From: Synechococcus sp. PCC 7336
GTDB taxonomy: Bacteria > Cyanobacteriota > Cyanobacteriia > Thermostichales > PCC-7336
Assembly: GCF_000332275.1 (NCBI RefSeq)
Contig: NZ_CM001776.1
Location: forward strand, 2,252,789-2,316,788
Direction of reading: 5' to 3'
Length of the DNA stretch: 64,000 nt
Each line of letters opens with the position of its first letter. The first letter of the stretch is position 1. This document shows, in pieces, positions 15,490-29,313 of the stretch. The notes beneath the pieces are model-generated. The model was not told the origin of the DNA and did no database searches. It worked only from the letters and a program-made list of their open reading frames with translations. A program made the position numbers and the translations under genes.

Positions 15490-15852
15490 ATGAGTACTGC
15501 TTTAGTCATTGACGATTCGCGCACAGATATGGAAGTCATTTCCACGTCCCTCAGCCAGGGTGGATTTATGGTGCTGAAAGCCAACAATGGCGAGGAAGCC
15601 CTAACGCAGATCGCCTCCCAACAGCCCGATGTGATTTTTCTCGATGTCGTCCTGCCTGGTGTGAGCGGATTCGAGCTGTGCCGCGACCTCAAAAACAAGG
15701 ACGAGACGAAGTCGATTCCAGTGGTGCTCTGCTCCACAAAGGGGACGGAGATGGACCAATTTTGGGGCATGAAGCAGGGGGCCGATGCCTATCTAACGAA
15801 ACCCGTGGATAGCGAAGAGTTGGTGCGCGTGGCGAAAAAGCTGGTGCAGTAA
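15490..15852 (+). CDS. CheY-like response regulator (PixH type)
   Basis: 120 residues, a stand-alone receiver domain. Acidic pocket DD at 8-9 (VIDDSR), phospho-acceptor Asp in IFLDVVLPG (about residue 53), CSTKG and LTKPV with the conserved Thr/Lys. It takes the phosphoryl group from the cluster's CheA and is expected to act on the twitching-motility machinery. First gene of a rightward operon, 27 bp before the CheW gene; the gene order matches Synechocystis pixH-pixI-pixJ-pixJ2-pixL. Confidence 0.88.
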   Translation: MSTALVIDDSRTDMEVISTSLSQGGFMVLKANNGEEALTQIASQQPDVIFLDVVLPGVSGFELCRDLKNKDETKSIPVVLCSTKGTEMDQFWGMKQGADAYLTKPVDSEELVRVAKKLVQ

Positions 15853-15879: not shown

Positions 15880-16449
15880 ATGGTAGAGCAATCGACGATC
15901 GCGGCGACGCCAGGTCCGGCCTTGGGATTGGATCTAGCGGGCCAGGAGTCTGACGGCAGGGCACAGTTTTTGCAGGTCCGCATTAGCCCCCAATTGCGGG
16001 CGGCGCTACCGGTGGAAAGCCTCACAGAGGTGCTGGCAGTGCCGTTCGGTCAGATTGTGCCGATTCCCCACATGCCTGACTGGGTGATGGGGGCATACAA
16101 CTGGCGCGGCGATATTTTGTGGGTGGCGGATTTGGGCCATCTATTGGGAATGACGCCCTGGCACCAGCTTCGGCAAACGTCGGGTCGCCATGCGGTAGCG
16201 GTGCTGCACGGGGATAAGGCTAACCGCAAGTCGCGGGGTAGTTTCGCCCAGATCTTGGGGGTTGCGGTAGCCCAGGTGGACGAGATAGCCACTTACGACG
16301 CGACAGAGATTCAATCGCCCCCGGACGGCACCGTCTCTGCGGGGTTGGCTCCGTTTTTGCGGGGGTATTGGGTTGCGCCCGAGGAGGAGATGGTGGCTGT
16401 GCTGGACGCGCGATCGCTCCTCGCCCGTGCAGCCCAGTCGTCTGGATAA
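15880..16449 (+). CDS. CheW-like coupling protein (PixI type)
   Basis: 189 residues. The CheW domain spans about 28-185: LRAALPVESLTEVLAVP, then PHMPDWVMGAYNWRGDILWVADLG, the conserved receptor/kinase docking loop, then FAQILGVAVAQVDEI. It links the two downstream receptors to the CheA. A 30-residue N-terminal extension is low complexity. Second gene of the operon; 116 bp precede the first receptor. Confidence 0.9.
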   Translation: MVEQSTIAATPGPALGLDLAGQESDGRAQFLQVRISPQLRAALPVESLTEVLAVPFGQIVPIPHMPDWVMGAYNWRGDILWVADLGHLLGMTPWHQLRQTSGRHAVAVLHGDKANRKSRGSFAQILGVAVAQVDEIATYDATEIQSPPDGTVSAGLAPFLRGYWVAPEEEMVAVLDARSLLARAAQSSG

Positions 16450-16565: not shown

Positions 16566-19500
16566 ATGACTCAGACCCCTCCCAAGTCCGGTCGCTACCC
16601 TGCGACGAATGGCAATGGCGCTCGGAACCCGGCGGACGATTTGGCAACGGGTATGAGCCGTTCGTCAGCGTCGCTGCCACCGAATTTGGTAGGTGCCTCG
16701 GGGCAGAGGATGGCACGACCCATGCCCCAACCGCCTCAGGTCGTGCTGCCATCGCCTCAGCCTGCTGCTGTGCGGAGTGTTGCGAATGGAATGAAACTGC
16801 CAGGGTTCGGGACGCTGCGGGGGCGGCTGTTGCTGACGCTATTGCCGGCGGTGGTGGTTCCGTTATTGGCGTTTGGCTTTGGCGCGGGCCAAGTTGCCCA
16901 CCAGCAAGCTGAAGAGGAGCTAGAAGAGCGAACTGAAAAACTGGCGGAACTGGCGAGCAATGCGTTTGCAACAGAGCTAGAGGAAGGCTTTGCGCACGCG
17001 GAGCAGATTGCCCTCAATCCGCTGGCGATCGATGCTGCCCGCGCAGGCGGTCAATTCGCCGAGGCAGAGGGATTGGCGGAACTGCCGGACGATCGCCTAG
17101 AGGAGCAGTTTTCAGCGACGAACCTGCTGCAGCCAAACCAGCGGCTGAACGATTATCTGCGTCAAGTTGCCGTAGCGACCGAGACTGTCGAGGTGTTTTT
17201 CACGGAGCGCAATGGGTTGAATATTGCTTATAGCAACAAAACCGGCGACCTGGTGCAGCGGGATGAAGAATGGTGGCAAGCAGGCAAGGCGGAAACCCAG
17301 TGGGTCGGTCACGCCGAATTTGACGAATCTGCGAATGCATTCAGTATCGATCTAGCCCAGGCCATTACAGATCCAGCCTCGGGAGAGTTTCTGGGCGTGC
17401 TGAAGGTGGTCTTACCTGCTGCGGGCTTTGACACTATTTCAGATTTCCTCAATGATGTGGGGCTTACAAAGACTGCTCGAGTGCAATTGGTGGACATTGA
17501 TGAGAACCGTGCAGAAGCAGGAGCGGGAAACTCTTCAGCAGAAGAAAGTGGCGTCCTGTTCACGGTGACTGGAGAAGGCACCGAGGTGTCAGGCGAGCTG
17601 ACGGGTGGCGAGAGTCTTCACTCGATTCTCCTACTCATGCAGGAATTGTTGGAGGGGGGGGCTAGCAACGGGCAGGTGCAGCAACGCTTGGACAGCCAAT
17701 TCTCGCTAAAGGACTTGTCTTTGGGCGAATTTGACGGAGATGAAGTAAGAGAAGGTGAGTTTCTAGATGCGTCGTTCTTACTCGGCGATCGGTTTTACAG
17801 CGTTGTGGTTTCGGGCAAAAATCATTTTGCAGCCGTTTCCTCTATCAGTCACGACGAACTTAAAGCGGCCGGACAGGGGTTGAAATGGAATCTGTTCGGC
17901 GCAGCCTTTGCCTCCTCAGTCCTGCTAGGAGGCGTGATTTTGTGGTTATCCGGGCAACTGTCTAAGCCGCTCAACCGCCTTGCCGGGACAGCGCAAACGG
18001 TAGCCGCAGGCAACCTGGACGTCCTAGCCGAGCCCAGCGGTACTGAAGAAACCCAAACCCTGGCCAACAACTTCAACGCTCTGGTGACGCGGGTGAGAGG
18101 TCTACTGCAACGGCAAGCTCGCACCAACGAAGAAACCCTGCTTCTGGCCGAAATCGCCGGAGCCAACACCCAAACTGAGGCCGACGTCCGGGCTCTTCTC
18201 GACCTCGCAGTCTCGGGAGCCCGTCGCCAGCTCGGGGCCGAGCGAGTGGTGCTCTACCGCTTTAACCCCGACTGGACGGGAACTGTCGTTGCTGAGTCTG
18301 CCATCGCCGGCTTTCCCTCAGCCCTCAACAGTGAAATGCAAGAGGCATGCATCCCCGAACACGTTCGCAACGAATATGCCCTCGGCAAAGTGGCGGCCAA
18401 CACGGATGTGTTCGATGCGGGCTTCCACCCCGATCGCCTCAAGCTCTTGATTCGTCTGGGCATCAAGTCCAACCTGATTACCCCCGTGGTGGCAGGCGGC
18501 AAAATCTTCGGGTTGCTCATTGCCCACTATTGCAGCCGCCAGCATGCGTGGAACGCCGACGAGCAAATCAACTTCAAGCGCATTGCCGACCAACTGGGCC
18601 TCTCCCTCAGCCGCTTCGTTTACGTGGAACAGGTGGAATCCACCGCCGAAGAACAGCGCTTGCTGGCGGACATTGCCGGAGCCAGCACCCAAACCGACGA
18701 AGATATTCTCGATCTGTTTAACATCACCGCTCGGGGCTCGCGCAAGCTGCTCGGCTCCGATCGCGTAGTGCTCTATCGCTTCAACCCCGACTGGAGCGGC
18801 TCCGTCGTCGCCGAAGACGCTATCCCTGGCTTGCCCAAAGCCCTCAACAATCGAGTTGAAGATGCTTGCATCCCCGAAACTATCCGCAAGGACTATCTCA
18901 GCGGCAAGGTGCTGGCCAACGACGATGTCTTTGCAGCGGGCTTCCACCCCGACCACGAAGCCCTGATGGCGCGCCTGAAGATTGCCTCCAATCTGATTAC
19001 CCCCGTGGTCGCTGGCGGCCTGCTCTTCGGCCTGCTAATTGCCCACTACTGCAACAAGCAACACTCGTGGAGCGACGACGAACAAACTCGCCTCAAGCGC
19101 TTCGCCGACCAACTCGGTCTCTCCCTCAACCGCGTCGTCTACGTGGAACAGGTGCAAAAGGTAGCTGAAGAACAGCGGCAATTGAAGGAAATCCTGCAAA
19201 AACGTGCCCTCGAATTGCTGATGCAGGTGGACCCGGTCAGTCAAGGCGACCTCACCATCCGCGCCAAAGTGACCGAAGACGAGATCGGCACGATCGCCGA
19301 CTCCTACAACGCCACTGTAGGCAGCCTGCGCAAGATTGTGCAACAGGTGCAAGACGCCGCCCAAAAGGTGGCCGCCACCACCACCACCAGCGAGACCTCC
19401 GTGGGCGACCTGGCCCGAGAAGCCCTCGCGCAAGCGGACGATATTTCAGCAGCGCTCGATCGCATCCAAACCATGACGATGTCAGCTCGCGTGGTGGCCG

Positions 19501-20180
19501 AAAGTGCTGAAAAAGCCGAGCAAACCGTGCAGCAAACGGCCCAAACCGTGCAAGCTGGAGACGAGGCCATGAACCGGACGGTGGATGGATTTATGGCCAT
19601 CCGCGAAACGGTGGCCGATGCCACCAAGAAAGTGAAGCGGCTGGGGGAAGCCTCCCAGAAGATTTCTAAAGTGGTGAGCCTGATTGGTGGCTTTACCGAC
19701 CAAACCAACCTGCTGGCGCTGAATGCCTCGATTGAGGCGGCCCACGCTGGCGAGGAAGGGAAAGGGTTTGCAGTGGTTGCGGACGAAGTGCGATCGCTTG
19801 CCCGCCAGTCTGCCGACGCAACGGCGGAAATCGAAGCGCTGGTGGCCGAAATTCAGGGGGAAACCAACGAGGTGGTGGCTGCAATGGAAACGGGCACTCA
19901 GCAGGTGGTGGCCGGAACTCAACTGGTGGAAGAAACCCGCCAGAATCTGAACCAAATCACCCGAGCCAGTAGCGAGATTGAGAACCTGGTGAACGCGATC
20001 GCCCAAGCCGCCTCCGAACAAACCCTCGCCTCGGAAGTAGTGGCCCAGACCATGACCGAGGTGGCGGCTGTGTCGGGCAAGACTTCGACCTCGGTCTCCG
20101 ACGTGTCCGAGTCATTCAAACAGCTCCAGACTGTGGCTCAACAGCTTCAAGAGACGGTCAGCCAGTTCAAGCTGAGCTAG
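16566..20180 (+). CDS. GAF-containing methyl-accepting taxis receptor (PixJ-type, first)
   Basis: 1204 residues. Order: Pro-rich cytoplasmic head (1-85), membrane helix (about 87-108), periplasmic Cache-like sensor (about 110-435), helix (about 442-461), HAMP, GAF1 (about 522-690), GAF2 (about 695-865), a second HAMP (about 880-930), and a methyl-accepting signalling domain whose tip has [19 protein letters not shown] and ADEVRSLA. Both GAFs read FHPDR or FHPDH where cyanobacteriochromes have the chromophore Cys-His, so neither has the canonical bilin Cys. Both retain a Cys in DACI/EACI, the position of the DXCF Cys. It therefore probably senses through the Cache domain and pairs with the next receptor. 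Confidence 0.9.
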
Positions 20181-20294
20181 AACGGTCTCGCTCTGGGGGA
20201 GGAAACTTCCCCAGCACGCGATCGCGCCATTGTGCTTCAGTCTTTTGTCTCCCCTCAGTTTTTCGCCACACCCAGTCTTCGCGAGTTTGTCACC

Positions 20295-23200
20295 ATGACG
20301 CAGACCCCTCCCAAACCCATCTCCAGTCGGCCATCTCCGAGCGATCTTCACTCGCCTGCAATGGAGTTAGGATATTCTCCGTCAGCGGAGCTCCCAACCA
20401 GCCAGCAGCAGTTGTCTCCAGATCTATCCCCCACCTCTCTAGAGTCGGTTGCTTCCGGTCATCCCGTCGAGGCGCGTCGGCCACAGAATTCAGTCTGGCG
20501 AATAGTCCGCAGTTTGCAATTTAAGGCTACCGCCCTGGCCATCGCCATCGGGACTGTCCCAGTGTTGGCAATTGGAGCGACAGCCTATTATTTCGCGAAC
20601 GAATCGATCGTGCGGCAAATCGAGCAGGACAAACAAATTCGGGCAACCCAACTGGCCAACGAGATCGGCGTGTTCATGGCTGACCGATTTGCCGACATTC
20701 AAGTGTTGGCCCAGCTTCCTATCTTCACCGATCCCGAGGTATCGGCAACCACATCGACAGAAGAGAAGGTGGCACTGTTAGACCGCTATGTCAGCCTTTA
20801 TGGGGTCTACAACAGCGTCGCCCTGTTCGACCTCGAAGGCGAGACGGTCGTGCAAGCGGTTGGCAGGCCCGTTCCCAACCACTTGACGCGGGATTACTTC
20901 GTGCGGATTATGAACACTGGCGAGCCCACCATCAACCCGCCCTCAATCTCTCGCACGACGGGAACGCTGAGTATGCATATCGCGTCGCCAGTGAAGGATG
21001 CGAACACGGGCGACATTACCGGGGTCATTCGCTTTCAGTTGCCGGTGGCAGGGTTGGACAAGATTGCCCGAGAGTATGCCAATGAAGGGGAGGATTACTA
21101 TCTGATTGATAGTAATGGCAGGTATTTTTTGGCGTCTGGAAATGCAGACAGAATCAACCAGCCAGCCGAGGAGCATTTTGTCGCTTACGAACAACTGGTG
21201 TCAGCGCAAGCAGTGGCTTCTGTTCTGGATATCGACCCCGACGATGAATCTGAAAGACTCTTGACCTATGCGCCCTTAACCGATCTAGCGGGACTGCCCG
21301 AATTGGATTTTGGAGTCTTAATCGCTAGCGATTTAGACGTCGTCTTTGCGCCGCAGCGGCAACTGCGCCAGACGATCTCTCTAGGAACGGCGATCGCGGC
21401 ATTGCTGGTGGGGGCGATCTCGACCTTGCTGGTCAATCGAGAAGTTCGTCCGATTGTTGCTGCCGCCAATGCCGTGCGGTCGATCGGTCGGGGAGAACTG
21501 GATACCCGCTTGGAGGTGAAAGGAGAGGACGAGGTGGCCGTACTGGGGACCAACGTCAACCAGATGGCCGCCCAGTTGCAAGCCCTCGCTTACACCGAAA
21601 GGCAGTCTGCCGATGCCACCCGCCTGCTCTCCAGCATTACCAGCCAACGCACCCTCGACGAAGGCGAACTGATGAGTGTGTTTAGCAAGGCTCTGGCCGG
21701 AGCGCGGCAATGGCTCGGGGTCGATCGGATGGTGATTTACCGCTTCAACCCTAATTGGAGTGGCTACATTGCTTCCGAAGCGGTGGCCTCGGGGTGGCCC
21801 GTGGCCTACAACGAGGCGATCGAAGATGCTTGTATTTCGTCCGAGTTGCTCGACGCCTATCGTGAAGGCCGCGTTGCAGCCACCCAAAACGTGGCGATCG
21901 CCGGTTTCCATCCCGAGCACCAAGAATTGATGCGGCGGCTGAAAATCAAAGCCAACCTCGTCGTACCCATTATCAGTCAGGGAGAGCTTTACGGCCTGCT
22001 CGTCGCCCACGACTGCACCGCCCCCCATGCGTGGGACGACCGCGAAATCGCCTTTATGAAGCAACTGTCGGCCCAAATGAGCATTACCCTCGATCGGGTT
22101 GCGTTTTTGCAAGACCGAGAGGAAGCCGCTCGCCGCTCCGACCTGCTTAAGGACATCACCCTCCAGTTCTCGCGAGCCACCAGCAGCAAGGCTCTGCTGG
22201 ACATAGCCGTGCAGCAGAGTCGTAAGGCGATCGCCACCGATCGCGTTATCGTCTACAGCTTTGACGAGACCTGGAAGGGGACTGTGGTGGCCGAGTCCGT
22301 CGCTGGTAGCTGGCCCAAAGCGATGGGAGCCCAAATTGCCGATCCTTGCTTTGCCGAGAGCTACGTAGAGCAATACCGGCAGGGCCGCATTCAGGCAGTT
22401 TCCGATATTGACAAGGCAGATCTGACCCCTTGCTACTCAGGTCAACTGCAGCCCTTTGCCGTGCGAGCCAACCTGGTGGCCCCCATCCTCATCGAGGGGG
22501 AGTTGGAGGGTTTACTCATTGCCCACCAGTGTTCGGCACCGAGGGATTGGGAACAACCGACGATCGATCTGTTCGCCCAACTCGCCATTCAGGTGGGGCA
22601 AGCCCTCGATCGCGTCAACCTGCTCGAGCGACAGCGCCGCTCGGAAGCTCTACAACGACAAACCAGCGAAACCCTGCAGCGGCGAGCCTTAGAACTGCTG
22701 CGGGAAGTAGACCCCGTCAGCCAAGGAGATCTCACGGTGCGAACCACCGTGACTGAAGACGAAATTGGCACGATCGCCGATTCCTACAACTCCACCATTG
22801 CCAACCTGCGGGGCATTGTGGCCCAGGTGCAAGAGGCTGCCAAGCAAGTGACGGACTCCACCAGCAACAACCAGACCTTCGTGAGTACCCTCTCGCAGGA
22901 AGCAGAACGGCAAGCGGCAGATATTGCGAACGCCCTCGATCGCATTCAAACCATGAATGCCTCGATTCGTAACGTGGCGGCTCGGGCCGAACGAGCAGAA
23001 GCTGCCGTGCAGCGCGCCAACCAGACGGTGACAGCGGGAGACGCCGCCATGAACCGTACGGTGGACAGCATCTTGACCGTACGCGAAACCGTGACCGATG
23101 CGGCCCAAAAGGTGCGGGAACTGGGCCAAGCCTCCCGACAGATTTCCCAGATGGGCAACACGATTGCGAAGTTTGCCTCCCAAACCCACCTCCTAGCGCT

Positions 23201-23660
23201 GAAAGCCTCGATCGAGGCCGCCCGAGCTGGGGAAGAAGGCAAAGGTTTTGCGGTGATCGCCGAAGAAGTGCGATCGCTGGCGGCCCAGTCTGCGGAAGCC
23301 ACCGCCAACATCGAGTCTTTGGTGACGAGCATTCAAACAGCCACGGACGAAGTGGCCGCCTCGATGGAAGCAGGGACCGAGCAGGTGGCCACAGGCACCC
23401 AACTGGTGGAAGAAACCCGCCGAAATCTCAGTCAGGTGGTGGAATTCAGTGCCCAGATCGAGCAATTGGTGGAAGCGATTGCCGCCGCCGCTGTGGAGCA
23501 GTCCGAGGCATCGGCCAGCGTGGCCCAAACCATGACCGAAGTGGCCGCTACGTCCCAGAACACCTCGGCTAACGCGATGCAATCCTCCGAGTCTTTCAAG
23601 CAACTGTTGGCCACGGCCCAAGCCCTCCAAATGAACGTGCGTCAGTTCAAGGTGAGCTAG
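20295..23660 (+). CDS. Methyl-accepting receptor with candidate DXCF cyanobacteriochrome GAF
   Basis: 1121 residues from ATG 20295. The start is chosen because MTQTPPKP matches the start of the preceding paralogue; an ATG at 20232 would add 21 residues. Order: membrane helix (77-97), Cache-like sensor, helix (about 360-382), HAMP, GAF1 (about 450-610), GAF2 (about 625-775), HAMP, MCP signalling domain. GAF2 contains DPCF with Cys685 and PCY with Cys713, 28 residues apart, as in PixJ DXCF cyanobacteriochromes, though Tyr replaces the usual His after the second Cys. GAF1 has DACI but no canonical Cys. The likely photoreceptor of the cluster, by inference. Confidence 0.9.
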   Translation: MTQTPPKPISSRPSPSDLHSPAMELGYSPSAELPTSQQQLSPDLSPTSLESVASGHPVEARRPQNSVWRIVRSLQFKATALAIAIGTVPVLAIGATAYYFANESIVRQIEQDKQIRATQLANEIGVFMADRFADIQVLAQLPIFTDPEVSATTSTEEKVALLDRYVSLYGVYNSVALFDLEGETVVQAVGRPVPNHLTRDYFVRIMNTGEPTINPPSISRTTGTLSMHIASPVKDANTGDITGVIRFQLPVAGLDKIAREYANEGEDYYLIDSNGRYFLASGNADRINQPAEEHFVAYEQLVSAQAVASVLDIDPDDESERLLTYAPLTDLAGLPELDFGVLIASDLDVVFAPQRQLRQTISLGTAIAALLVGAISTLLVNREVRPIVAAANAVRSIGRGELDTRLEVKGEDEVAVLGTNVNQMAAQLQALAYTERQSADATRLLSSITSQRTLDEGELMSVFSKALAGARQWLGVDRMVIYRFNPNWSGYIASEAVASGWPVAYNEAIEDACISSELLDAYREGRVAATQNVAIAGFHPEHQELMRRLKIKANLVVPIISQGELYGLLVAHDCTAPHAWDDREIAFMKQLSAQMSITLDRVAFLQDREEAARRSDLLKDITLQFSRATSSKALLDIAVQQSRKAIATDRVIVYSFDETWKGTVVAESVAGSWPKAMGAQIADPCFAESYVEQYRQGRIQAVSDIDKADLTPCYSGQLQPFAVRANLVAPILIEGELEGLLIAHQCSAPRDWEQPTIDLFAQLAIQVGQALDRVNLLERQRRSEALQRQTSETLQRRALELLREVDPVSQGDLTVRTTVTEDEIGTIADSYNSTIANLRGIVAQVQEAAKQVTDSTSNNQTFVSTLSQEAERQAADIANALDRIQTMNASIRNVAARAERAEAAVQRANQTVTAGDAAMNRTVDSILTVRETVTDAAQKVRELGQASRQISQMGNTIAKFASQTHLLALKASIEAARAGEEGKGFAVIAEEVRSLAAQSAEATANIESLVTSIQTATDEVAASMEAGTEQVATGTQLVEETRRNLSQVVEFSAQIEQLVEAIAAAAVEQSEASASVAQTMTEVAATSQNTSANAMQSSESFKQLLATAQALQMNVRQFKVS

Positions 23661-23737: not shown

Positions 23738-26700
23738 ATGGCGATCGAACCGGATATTCGCGACCAAGCCTACGAATTCTTTGTCGAGGAGGCTCCCGAG
23801 TTACTCCAAATCATTGAGTCGGGCTTGCTGAACCTGTGGGAAGAGTCCAGTGCCCCCAAAATCCACGAGTTGATGCGGGCAGCTCACTCCATCAAGGGAG
23901 GAGCTGCCAGCGTCGGTCTGGACGCGATTAAAACCCTGTCCCACCGCCTCGAAGATATTTTTAAAGCGCTCTATAACGACAGCACTGCGATCGACGCCGA
24001 GTTTGAAACGCAGCTCTTACAAGCCTTTGACTGTTTGCGCCAGCCCTTGATGGAGCAGATCGAAACCGATCGCTTTAACCCCGAGCAAGCTGTGGATACG
24101 GCGGAGCCGATTTTTGCGCAGATTGAAGATCGGTTGGGGGATGCCCTCAAGCAGGCGGAGAATGTGGTTGCCAGCTCTGCAGACTTTGGCATCGATATTG
24201 CGGTGTCGATTTTTGAAGTGGATGTAAAGAGCGGCCTCCAGCGCCTCACTGATGTGATTGCCAGCCCAAACGACTACGAGGTGGCAGGAGAAGTGCGCGC
24301 CCAGGCCGAAGTGTTTGCGGGCTTTGCCGAACTGCTCGAACTGCATGGATTTGGCGAGATCGCCAGCTTGGCGATCGAGGCAGTGGAAGCCCATCCCGAT
24401 CGGGCATTGGCGATCGCTCAACTGGTGCTGGCCGATTTTCAGGCGGGGCGCACTGCGGTTCTCAACGGCGATCGCGAGCGGGGCGGCGAACCCTCTGCCG
24501 AGTTGCGGGCGATCGCCAATGGCACGGAAACGCTGCCCTCCTCGCTCGATTGTGTCGAGGTCAATGAGGCAGGATCTCCCCTGGAAGCGTCTGTCGAGCC
24601 CTTATCCGAGTTTTCCATGCAGGGACCCGAGGGCGCTTCCGACGGGGAAGATCCCGAAAGGTTCCACGCCACAGCCGAATATATCGATCGCTTAGCCGCT
24701 GAGGCGGAGGGAATCGAGGCGCTGGCTAACATCTTTGCCCGTGACGCCGAACTGGACGAGGTGGAGGATTCGCAGGCAGCAGCACTGTTGCCCGAGGACA
24801 ACTGGGCGAACGAGGCATCCCCAGAAGACATGTCAGTAGAAGATATGTTTGGCGATGTAGTGACAGCCCTCGGGTTGGACAGCGATACCAGCTCGACCGG
24901 TGAAGCGGAGAACGCGAGGGCTGGGGAGGCGGATCCTTCCGAGGAGGAGATTTTCGACGCCTGGCGCGAAGCACTGTCGGCAGCCCGAGCGGAGGGTGCT
25001 GCCGATGCCGAGATTGAGGCGATCGCGCCGATTAATTCGCCCGCGATCGGCGATGCCGAGCCCCAATCGGTCGAGCCTATCCTCGGCACGAATGAACTGA
25101 CTGTCGCAGAGGCTGACAGTTTCCTGGCAGAGCTTGAAACTCCTCCCGAAGCGGATAGCACTGACAAGATTGAGGCCGTACTGTTCGCGGACGACCCTTC
25201 TGCGGACGACCCTTCTGCGGACGACCCCTCGGCAGACGAGGTCTTTGGCGGTTGGACAGCAGCGATAGACTCCTCCCAACCCGAGGCCGTACTCCCTGAG
25301 TCCGAGCCCGTTACCTCCGAGCCCGAACCACCCCTCGCCACTCCTTTCCCCGAACCAGTTTCGGCCAATCCGATGGCTACTCTAGCCGCCGCCTTGCAGT
25401 CCGTGCGCGAGAACTTCGATACCTTGCCCCCCGCTAGCGATCTCGATGCAGGGGGGATCGCAGTTGCGCCCTCTGCTGCTACCCCTGACGCTGCCGACTC
25501 CTCCACACCCGCTGCACCTCCTGCCCAGCAAAGCGATCGCCCCGCTGAAGCACCCAGTCCTACTAAACGGTCGAGCGGACTCTCCGTCAGAGTCGATCTA
25601 GAGCGGTTGCAACGGATGGACAACCAAGTGGGCGAACTCGCCATCAACCGCAACGGCCTGTCTCTACAAAACGATCAATTGCAAGGGACCGTGCGCGATC
25701 TGCTCGCCCGCTTCGCCAATTTCCAGACCCTGGCCGCCTATCTGCGGGATATCTCCGATCGCATGTTGATCGCACCCGATCGCTACCGCTCCAACGGAGC
25801 TCTACCCAGCTTCGCCCTGCCGCCTCGCGCCTCCAACCTGCGCCCCAGCAGCTTTGACTCCCTCGAACTCGACAGCTACAGCGAGCTGCACGCCATCGTG
25901 CAGGAGATGCTGGAAGAAACGATACAAATTGAGGAATCGGCAGGAGACATTGCCCTTTTTGCCAGCCAATCCAACCAACTGCTCGAACAAAACCGCCAGG
26001 TACTCGGCCAACTGCGGGACGAACTGATGTGGTCGCGGATGTTGCCCTTGAGCGAAATTCTCAACCGCTTCCCCCGCGTATTGAGGGATCTGTCCGTTAA
26101 GCACGGCAAGTCTGTCGGCCTCAAGCTCAGCGGTGCGGGCGTTCTCGTAGATAAAGCCATGTTGGAAAAACTCTACGACCCCATGCTGCACCTATTGCGC
26201 AATGCCTTCGACCACGGCATCGAGCCCCCCGAGCAGCGTCGCCAGCGGGGCAAAGCGGAGAAAGGCTACATCGAAGTGCGGGCCTACTACAAGGGCAGCC
26301 AAACCATTGTGGAAGTGGCCGACGACGGCCGCGGGATCGACTTCGAACGGGTTCGGCAGCAGGCCATCGACCTCAGTCTCCTATCGATCGAGCAGAGTGA
26401 AGCAATCTCCACCGATCGCTTGCTCGATTTCCTCTTCGAACCCGGATTCTCTACCGCCGAACGCGTCAGTGACTTATCGGGGCGGGGTATGGGCCTCGAT
26501 GTGGTGCGATCGCAATTGCGATCGCTCAAAGGCACCGTCACCGTTACCTCCGAGCGCGAGCGCGGCACCACTTTTACCCTCAAACTGCCGCTCACCCTGA
26601 GCATTTCCAAACTGCTGATCTGCCGTGCTGGAGCCGCTGCCCTGGCGCTGCCCTCCGATAGTGTGGACGACATTGTCAACCCGCTAGAAGGCACAGTCAA

Positions 26701-27550
26701 ACAATCGGGCCAGCGGCGCTTCCTCTATTGGCAAGGACAAACCATCCCGATTTACCGCCTCGCCGATTTGCTCGACTACCGCTGCCCCCTTGCCGATACC
26801 CCCGCCAGTCGGGCCCTCATGGCCGTGCCCGCTCCTCAGGACTGGGCGTCGCCCATTCTCATCCTGCGCCGCGATCGCCAGACGATCGCGATCGAAGTGG
26901 ACCAACTCCTCTCCGAGCAAGAGCTGGCCATCAAACCCTTTGGCACAACCCTTACCCCACCCCGCTATGCCTATGGATGTACCATCCTGGGGGATGGCTC
27001 CCTCGTACCGGTATTGGATGGCTTAACCCTGTGGGATGAGGTAGAGCGAGGTTCCTCGGGCCGTTCGACCTCCAGCGGTGCGATCGTCAGCCATACTCCT
27101 ACCCTCCCAGCCAAAAGCATCAATGCCGTGCAGATGCCGAGGATCTTGGTGGTGGACGACTCCAGCACCCAACGTCGCACTCTGGCAGCTTCCTTCCAGC
27201 GGGCAGGCTATCGAGTCTTGCAAGCCCGCAACGGTCGCGAAGCCTTACAGCACCTGGAGCAACACGCTGACGTGCAGTTGATCGTGTGCGACATCGAGAT
27301 GCCCAACATGAATGGCTTCGAGTTTCTCACCCACCGCCGCCAAATTCCCGCTCTGGCAGCTATTCCCACCGTCATGCTCACATCCCGCAGCGGCGACAAG
27401 CACAAGCGCCTCGCCCAACATTTAGGAGCTGACGGCTATTTCACCAAGCCCTATCTAGAGCAGGAGTTTCTCGCTGCTGCCGCCCGTCTCTGCGGTGGCG
27501 CTGCCACCAGCTCTACAGCGGCCTCTTCCTCCCCTGCCCTAACGGTCTAA
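23738..27550 (+). CDS. Hybrid CheA histidine kinase with receiver domain (PixL type)
   Basis: 1270 residues. HPt domain (1-115) with phospho-site His50 in RAAHSIKGG; a second helical HPt-like or P2-like region (about 150-240); a very long acidic linker (about 240-600) with ADDPS repeats; dimerisation and ATPase domains (from about 611; N-box NAFDHG, G1 DDGRGID near 860, G2 GRGMGL near 915); CheW domain (about 953-1098); and a C-terminal receiver (about 1131-1258) with Asp1185. It autophosphorylates on His and passes phosphate to CheY and its own receiver. Fifth gene of the cluster. Confidence 0.95.
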   Translation: MAIEPDIRDQAYEFFVEEAPELLQIIESGLLNLWEESSAPKIHELMRAAHSIKGGAASVGLDAIKTLSHRLEDIFKALYNDSTAIDAEFETQLLQAFDCLRQPLMEQIETDRFNPEQAVDTAEPIFAQIEDRLGDALKQAENVVASSADFGIDIAVSIFEVDVKSGLQRLTDVIASPNDYEVAGEVRAQAEVFAGFAELLELHGFGEIASLAIEAVEAHPDRALAIAQLVLADFQAGRTAVLNGDRERGGEPSAELRAIANGTETLPSSLDCVEVNEAGSPLEASVEPLSEFSMQGPEGASDGEDPERFHATAEYIDRLAAEAEGIEALANIFARDAELDEVEDSQAAALLPEDNWANEASPEDMSVEDMFGDVVTALGLDSDTSSTGEAENARAGEADPSEEEIFDAWREALSAARAEGAADAEIEAIAPINSPAIGDAEPQSVEPILGTNELTVAEADSFLAELETPPEADSTDKIEAVLFADDPSADDPSADDPSADEVFGGWTAAIDSSQPEAVLPESEPVTSEPEPPLATPFPEPVSANPMATLAAALQSVRENFDTLPPASDLDAGGIAVAPSAATPDAADSSTPAAPPAQQSDRPAEAPSPTKRSSGLSVRVDLERLQRMDNQVGELAINRNGLSLQNDQLQGTVRDLLARFANFQTLAAYLRDISDRMLIAPDRYRSNGALPSFALPPRASNLRPSSFDSLELDSYSELHAIVQEMLEETIQIEESAGDIALFASQSNQLLEQNRQVLGQLRDELMWSRMLPLSEILNRFPRVLRDLSVKHGKSVGLKLSGAGVLVDKAMLEKLYDPMLHLLRNAFDHGIEPPEQRRQRGKAEKGYIEVRAYYKGSQTIVEVADDGRGIDFERVRQQAIDLSLLSIEQSEAISTDRLLDFLFEPGFSTAERVSDLSGRGMGLDVVRSQLRSLKGTVTVTSERERGTTFTLKLPLTLSISKLLICRAGAAALALPSDSVDDIVNPLEGTVKQSGQRRFLYWQGQTIPIYRLADLLDYRCPLADTPASRALMAVPAPQDWASPILILRRDRQTIAIEVDQLLSEQELAIKPFGTTLTPPRYAYGCTILGDGSLVPVLDGLTLWDEVERGSSGRSTSSGAIVSHTPTLPAKSINAVQMPRILVVDDSSTQRRTLAASFQRAGYRVLQARNGREALQHLEQHADVQLIVCDIEMPNMNGFEFLTHRRQIPALAAIPTVMLTSRSGDKHKRLAQHLGADGYFTKPYLEQEFLAAAARLCGGAATSSTAASSSPALTV
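25187..25231. repeat. 15-bp in-frame tandem repeat in the CheA linker
   Basis: Three copies of GCGGACGACCCTTCT (the third differing at two positions), encoding Ala-Asp-Asp-Pro-Ser repeats in the acidic linker. In-frame, so length variation would be tolerated. Confidence 0.9.
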
Positions 27551-28125: not shown

Positions 28126-29313
28126 TTAAACCTTGACGGTTAGGTATTGTTTCACAACCTCTAACACAGTTGACGAACTCACTGGCTTACTCAAAAATTC
28201 AGTGGAGCCGACTAGCTTGGCGCGAACGCGATCGACCAGACCGTCGTTGCCCGTCAGAATGATGATGGGCGTCCTTTTAAAGACGGACAGACTGCGGAGT
28301 TGCGAGCAAATTTCATACCCATTCGTATTCGGCATCACCAGATCGAGGAAGATCAAATCGGGCTTTTTAGCCAGCAAGGTGGCGATCGCCCTTAACGATT
28401 CTGTCACCCCGACAAACTGGTAGCCCTCTTTGGTCAAGATTTTCTCCATCACCTGACACACCATCGGGCTGTCGTCTACACAGGCGATCGTCTGGCGGTA
28501 CAGGCTGGGCTGAGACTGAGGCTTGGGAGTCGAACCCATCCCGATGGGCGGCTTGGCATCGGAGAGATCCTGCCATCGCAAAATCTTGCTCCGAATCAAT
28601 GGCATCAGCGAATTCGCCAAATCGGTTAACTTTCTGCCCGTTCGCTGAGCGATCTCGAATAAGGTTGACTCGCCGTCCAAGAGCTCAGTCATGGCCTGAA
28701 ATGCCTGGGGAGACATTTGCGCTTGCAATGATTGGAGATTTGCAATGGCGATCGCGCAGTCGGGTTTGCAGTCCTCTATCCCAAACCACTGCCAATGCTG
28801 CCACTGTTGCTGAAAGCTGTCCAGAAATTGCACCGGATCGAGCAGCACCCCCTTGCAGGGTTCTAGGGGTCGATCCGCTACTGTATGCCACCCGCATTTA
28901 GGGGACTGGCTGATTTCTAAAACAACATCTGAAACCATGCCGCCGATTAACCGAATCAGTTGCTCGCGACTGAGTAGGCCGGAGTTGCTGCCTTCGCGAA
29001 GCAGGTGGTATTCCCAGCAGCGAGAGGCTGCGGGCAAGTGCGCGCTACCCAGAGCACTCAGTTGAGCAATATCTAGAGACGGACAAGTGGCATTCAGGTG
29101 GCGCTGCCAGCGCCTTACGGGGTGCAATCCTCCCGTCGCATAGAGCAATCGACCCAAATAGAAATAAAAGACCCACTGTTTGCGATAGTCGTGCCGAACC
29201 ACAAACCGACCGTTGAACTGTTGGGCTTTGAGGGTTTGAAATGTTTTTAACCAGCCCTGCTGACCGTGGGCTAGGCTCGGTAGCTGATTCGACATCTTTA
29301 CACTGGTGACCAT
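28126..29313 (-). CDS. PatA-type response regulator (PixG/TaxP1-like)
   Basis: 395 residues; an in-frame ATG six codons later is an alternative start. The N terminus (about 15-120) is the DUF4388/PATAN domain (LKAQQFNGRFVVRHDYRKQWVFYFYLGRLLYA split by conserved Tyr/Trp), followed by a helical segment with LFEIAQRTGRKL. The C-terminal receiver (about 275-395) has DDSP, Asp in IFLDLVMPN and LSKPV. PATAN regulators interact with pilus motors to set direction in twitching motility. Convergent with the pix-type operon, whose last stop is 2 bp away. It has its own promoter region. Confidence 0.92.
   Translation of the reverse strand: MVTSVKMSNQLPSLAHGQQGWLKTFQTLKAQQFNGRFVVRHDYRKQWVFYFYLGRLLYATGGLHPVRRWQRHLNATCPSLDIAQLSALGSAHLPAASRCWEYHLLREGSNSGLLSREQLIRLIGGMVSDVVLEISQSPKCGWHTVADRPLEPCKGVLLDPVQFLDSFQQQWQHWQWFGIEDCKPDCAIAIANLQSLQAQMSPQAFQAMTELLDGESTLFEIAQRTGRKLTDLANSLMPLIRSKILRWQDLSDAKPPIGMGSTPKPQSQPSLYRQTIACVDDSPMVCQVMEKILTKEGYQFVGVTESLRAIATLLAKKPDLIFLDLVMPNTNGYEICSQLRSLSVFKRTPIIILTGNDGLVDRVRAKLVGSTEFLSKPVSSSTVLEVVKQYLTVKV

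Follow-up and report, generated by a model that had tools for sequence, protein, structure and literature searches.

A PixJ-type candidate DXCF cyanobacteriochrome domain with Tyr after the canonical Cys in a taxis receptor of Synechococcus sp. PCC 7336

The second GAF domain (GAF2) of a taxis receptor encoded in the 64,000-nucleotide stretch of Synechococcus sp. PCC 7336 DNA analysed here (the window) is most likely the chromophore domain of a PixJ-type phototaxis receptor, which would carry phycocyanobilin (PCB) on Cys713, form a second linkage through Cys685 and run a blue/green photocycle upon which Tyr714, the residue after the canonical Cys, would have a modest effect. Strong support for the original prediction of a photoreceptive PixJ-type DXCF cyanobacteriochrome (CBCR) GAF comes from the sequence itself, its phylogeny and predicted structure, the genes around it and the chromophore-synthesis genes of the host.

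The motif pair, its receptor and the chromophore supply

The 96 bases that span the two motifs (22341-22436) form one open frame and translate as DPCFAESYVEQYRQGRIQAVSDIDKADLTPCY. The DPCF codons and the Cys codon of PCY share this frame, and the two Cys codons, TGC at 22347-22349 and TGC at 22431-22433, lie 84 bases or 28 codons apart, exactly as had been read for GAF2 of the second taxis receptor. The frame belongs to a 1142-residue ORF (20232-23660) that is open from GTG 20232. ATG 20295 (MTQTPPK...) appears the likelier start of the receptor, because the upstream paralogue shares the MTQTPPK N-terminus, and the numbering of Cys685 and Cys713 counts from this ATG.

A DNA pattern of DXCF, 26 codons, CY, 10 codons and AN has a single match in the window and none in 100 dinucleotide-preserving shuffles. 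Scanning 84,980 bacterial and archaeal species for the DXCF-CY pattern returned at least 119 stretches; among the 80 matches listed, all but three carried cyanobacterial titles, and those three (Thalassobacillus, Bacteroidales and Paenibacillus) are probably chance matches. As the pattern is absent from the shuffles and the listed matches of the species scan are nearly all cyanobacterial, the 28-codon spacing is a family signature rather than a product of chance.

The receptor shows the features of PixJ, namely a HAMP domain, tandem GAFs, an MCP domain and TM helices (judged by eye from the translation), and it is encoded together with homologues of CheY, CheW and CheA (Table 1). The gene order CheY-CheW-MCP-MCP-hybrid CheA is that of a tax1/pix-like cluster in which the GAF2-bearing receptor is the second MCP. 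The arrangement resembles that of Synechocystis PixJ1/tax1 in its TM-HAMP-GAF1-GAF2-MCP receptor beside CheY, CheW and CheA genes and in the accompanying PATAN-REC regulator, but it differs in having two full-length receptors one after the other and in the position of the PATAN-REC gene, which is found downstream, on the opposite strand. In Synechocystis PixJ1, PCB is carried on the second GAF only (PMC5812497).

Table 1 Features of the receptor and its gene neighbourhood (positions in the window)
Feature	Coordinates	Strand	Basis
CheY-like response regulator (PixH-like)	15490..15852	+	Pfam PF00072
CheW-like adaptor (PixI-like)	15880..16449	+	Pfam PF01584
First taxis receptor, HAMP-GAF-GAF-MCP; both GAFs (D/E)ACIP, without canonical Cys	16566..20180	+	domain search, sequence
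PixJ-like taxis receptor: two predicted TM helices and extracytoplasmic region, HAMP, GAF1, GAF2, MCP signalling domain	20295..23660	+	Pfam; TM by eye
HAMP domain, residues 400-451	21429..21584	+	Pfam PF00672
GAF1: DACI motif; Glu replaces canonical Cys (HPEH)	21675..22091	+	sequence
GAF2, candidate DXCF cyanobacteriochrome domain	22140..22610	+	PDB sequence matches, tree, AlphaFold, structural match
DPCF motif with second Cys, Cys685 (TePixJ Cys494)	22341..22352	+	translation, TePixJ alignment
Canonical bilin Cys713 (TePixJ Cys522), then Tyr714 (TePixJ His523)	22431..22436	+	translation, TePixJ alignment
MCP signalling domain, residues 952-1106	23085..23549	+	Pfam PF00015
Hybrid CheA (Hpt, HATPase, CheW, receiver; PixL-like)	23738..27550	+	domain search
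DUF4388 (PATAN) and receiver response regulator (PixG-like)	28126..29313	-	domain search

The other GAFs of the two receptors are of a different make. Where GAF2 has DXCF, GAF1 and the two GAFs of the first receptor (18183-18608 and 18702-19127, + strand) show DACI or (D/E)ACIP, and their canonical Cys is replaced by Glu or Asp; a tree of 124 GAFs groups them with the GAF1 domains of four other cyanobacteria in a starred clade. Judged by their motifs, the three appear to share the anatomy of DXCIP CBCRs, which attach bilin through the DXCIP Cys alone (PMC5578081).

The 5.07 Mb genome, a single contig, encodes two heme oxygenases and four bilin reductases, the latter scored as two PcyA, PebA and PebB. 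With heme oxygenases and two PcyA present, the host can thus make PCB. The two PcyA genes (L169, 1447-2214; L172, 1414-2178) are separate, and each scores above the NCBIfam cut-off for phycocyanobilin:ferredoxin oxidoreductase.

Placement of GAF2 among the cyanobacteriochromes

In a PDB sequence search, the best matches to GAF2 are entries of TePixJ, the PixJ of Thermosynechococcus elongatus, at E values around 1e-46 (3vv4 at 5.6e-47, followed by 2m7u, 4fof and 6p58), with other CBCRs and phytochromes trailing far behind. The alignment with the TePixJ GAF runs without gaps and is identical at 78 of 143 residues. Of the eleven TePixJ positions inspected, only 521 (Glu to Pro712) and 523 (His to Tyr714) differ; those kept include D492, C494, F495, R507, C522, Q526, L527 and N535. 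Six chromophore neighbours named in the literature (D492, C494, C522, Q526, L527 and N535) are thus retained and H523 alone is altered; roles next to the chromophore have been described for D492, Q526, H523 and N535 (PMC6955287) and for L527 (PMC7504144).

The tree, computed without the His/Tyr column and enriched for CY rows by design, places GAF2 on the DXCF side, inside the group that contains TePixJ, along a path with supports of 84 and 89 that is not starred. Placement outside the CBCR clade, named beforehand as the outcome that would contradict the prediction, was looked for in this tree, and GAF2 falls inside. The AlphaFold model of GAF2, built from 36 sequences (mean pLDDT 91.8, pTM 0.89), finds its top structural match in TePixJ 4glq (Z 25.5 over 146 residues at 1.8 Å), followed by miRFP670nano, whose sequence contains CY, at Z 24.2. 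Since bacteriophytochromes also reach Z scores of at least 22, the fold by itself cannot decide the family, and it is sequence and tree that do. Both the alignment with TePixJ and the structure prediction, two of the checks proposed with the original prediction, came out in its favour.

Taken by these comparisons, GAF2 lies among CBCRs and not among other GAFs, with one Cys at TePixJ Cys522 and the Cys of an Asp-X-Cys-Phe motif at TePixJ Cys494. The His that commonly follows the canonical Cys directly is replaced by Tyr714; this His is usual in DXCF domains, not defining. Sequence, tree and predicted structure therefore give strong support to a place for GAF2 among the DXCF cyanobacteriochromes of the TePixJ/SyPixJ1 kind; with TePixJ (3vv4, 4glq, 4fof, 6p58) it shares the DPCF motif 28 residues from the canonical Cys, the predicted fold and the receptor class. 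A search for close GAF2 orthologues within the same order found none.

Frequency of Tyr after the canonical Cys

The strict DXCF-28-CY pattern is present in 116 of 249 genomes sampled from the class and the strict DXCF-28-CH pattern in 225 of 291, the two samples being overlapping and not identical; the genome of the window itself holds one CY match and no CH match. Given these 116 genomes and the at least 119 stretches of the species scan, CY can be regarded as neither rare nor unique. A motif-blind collection of the 62 closest GAF2 homologues comprises 56 with DxCF and CH, three with DxCF and CY, one with DxCM and CH, and two in which both Cys residues are missing. The caution attached to the original prediction, that DPCF also occurs in non-photoreceptor GAFs, applies poorly to this group, as 59 of the 62 pair D-x-C-F with the canonical Cys. 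CY is thus the less frequent state within the immediate PixJ group, yet widespread across DXCF domains as a whole.

On the 124-GAF tree, His and Tyr have interchanged at least 17 times, six of these changes being forced by well-supported branches, a count that gives recurrences and not frequency because the tree was deliberately enriched for CY rows. Some receptors (L027, L126 and L163) carry a CH GAF next to a CY GAF. Natural CY DXCF GAFs of other cyanobacteria, known from sequence alone, include those of Chroococcus (L081) and Cyanothece BG0011 (L121) and a third (L049); they keep the strict DXCF-28-CY arrangement at 52-61% identity to GAF2, and CY has arisen among them several times. Comparing CY and CH sets column by column does reveal differences, but relatedness could explain them and we claim no co-change in the pocket.

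Tyr after the Cys is also found in other CBCR-like GAFs of this genome. A multi-GAF MCP (L184, G000:C1 ~4233427-4237236, - strand) contains three near-repeat GAFs in which RCLIK sits within an insertion and is accompanied by DTYL and by CY at the canonical site (ACYLESL/PCYLESL); by sequence they resemble insert-Cys (CXXR/K) UV/violet-sensing CBCRs. A further CBCR-like GAF (L010 1447-1950; C1:1449164-1449589) combines DECL with CY, has its nearest PDB match in the dual sensor kinase 6oap and, because of inserted residues, places its two Cys 31 residues apart.

Possible roles of Tyr714 in the photocycle

As the most likely reading of sequence and model, GAF2 would be an ordinary blue/green photoreceptor of a known PixJ kind with a common residue variant. 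PCB would be bound through Cys713, while Cys685 would form a reversible bond with C10 of the bilin and aid the isomerisation of PCB to phycoviolobilin; light would then drive a cycle from a 15Z form expected to absorb blue to a 15E form expected to absorb green. The state of GAF2 would pass to the MCP domain, on to CheW and the hybrid CheA and from there to the CheY and PATAN-REC regulators, and finally, in the direction we infer, to the motility that depends on type IV pili. At the site taken in TePixJ by His523, a residue that moves slightly upon photoconversion (PMC6955287), Tyr714 probably stacks against the bilin.

What Tyr does at this position has been described for proteins outside the DXCF lineage, which bind bilin, show raised fluorescence and sometimes lack photoconversion. 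Red/green CBCRs almost always have CH, the natural exception being NpF2164g5, which has CY and is fluorescent; photoconversion went undetected in NpF2164g5 and in miRFP670nano, likewise a CY protein (PMC9378818). Introduction of CY into SPI1085g3 C448S raised biliverdin binding to 65% and increased fluorescence, moved absorption by about 14 nm to the blue and slowed dark reversion about 12-fold, with photoconversion retained (PMC9378818). In miRFP670nano, H87Y stacks parallel on the bilin, and the loss of photoswitching is attributed to N117H (PMC6336887). These proteins share with GAF2 the Tyr immediately after the canonical Cys but differ in being single-Cys, red-absorbing and not DXCF, so that any transfer of their CY effects to GAF2 is by inference; our literature search found no measurements on a natural DXCF domain with CY. 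Tyr714 probably has no more than a modest influence on where GAF2 absorbs, how strongly it fluoresces or how fast it reverts in the dark. The original prediction was right about the Tyr itself, and its suggestion that this residue makes GAF2 special or spectrally altered is weakly supported, as CY is widespread and the published CY effects come from other CBCR lineages.

Given the two CY proteins with no detected photoconversion, a working GAF2 cycle cannot be assumed. It is conceivable, though unlikely, that GAF2 binds its bilin and is rendered fluorescent and barely photoconverting by Tyr714, in the manner of NpF2164g5 and the stacked Tyr of miRFP670nano. Against this, SPI1085g3 C448S_CY still photoconverts, the loss of switching in miRFP670nano is ascribed to the different change N117H, none of the three proteins is DXCF, and a dead photocycle is hard to reconcile with the presence of CY and both Cys in about half of the sampled cyanobacterial genomes.

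We regard as improbable a shift in chromophore choice by which Tyr714 would let GAF2 take biliverdin in the cell and sense redder light. The gain in biliverdin binding of SPI1085g3 C448S upon the change from CH to CY and the reconstitution of SyPixJ1 with biliverdin (PMC5812497) speak for such a shift, but with two PcyA in the genome PCB should be available, and CY moved C448S to the blue, not to the red. In the engineering of BV4, moreover, the decisive residues lie elsewhere and His322 beside the Cys was kept; equating CY with the BV4 mutation His318Tyr was rejected, as His318 is not the His adjoining the Cys. That GAF2 is a non-photoreceptor GAF, its DPCF and second Cys being historical remnants, is very improbable: the canonical Cys is indeed absent from GAF1 of the same protein and from both GAFs of the first receptor, but GAF2 retains the Asp, the two Cys and most of the remaining TePixJ positions inspected, and the two homologues of the motif-blind collection that lack one Cys have lost the other as well.

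A PixJ-type photoreceptor with a modest Tyr714 effect remains the preferred reading, and it adds one more well-supported member to this family, with the CY oddity proving widespread. A bolder possibility, which we hold to be rather unlikely, is that natural DXCF CBCRs have repeatedly acquired CY under selection as a switch for tuning, by which PixJ receptors would change their choice of chromophore, the lifetime of the photoproduct or their fluorescence; the literature we searched contained no description of such a role for this residue in the DXCF lineage. If the effect of CY were consistent, many predicted DXCF photoreceptors would carry a tuning difference that motif annotation ignores.
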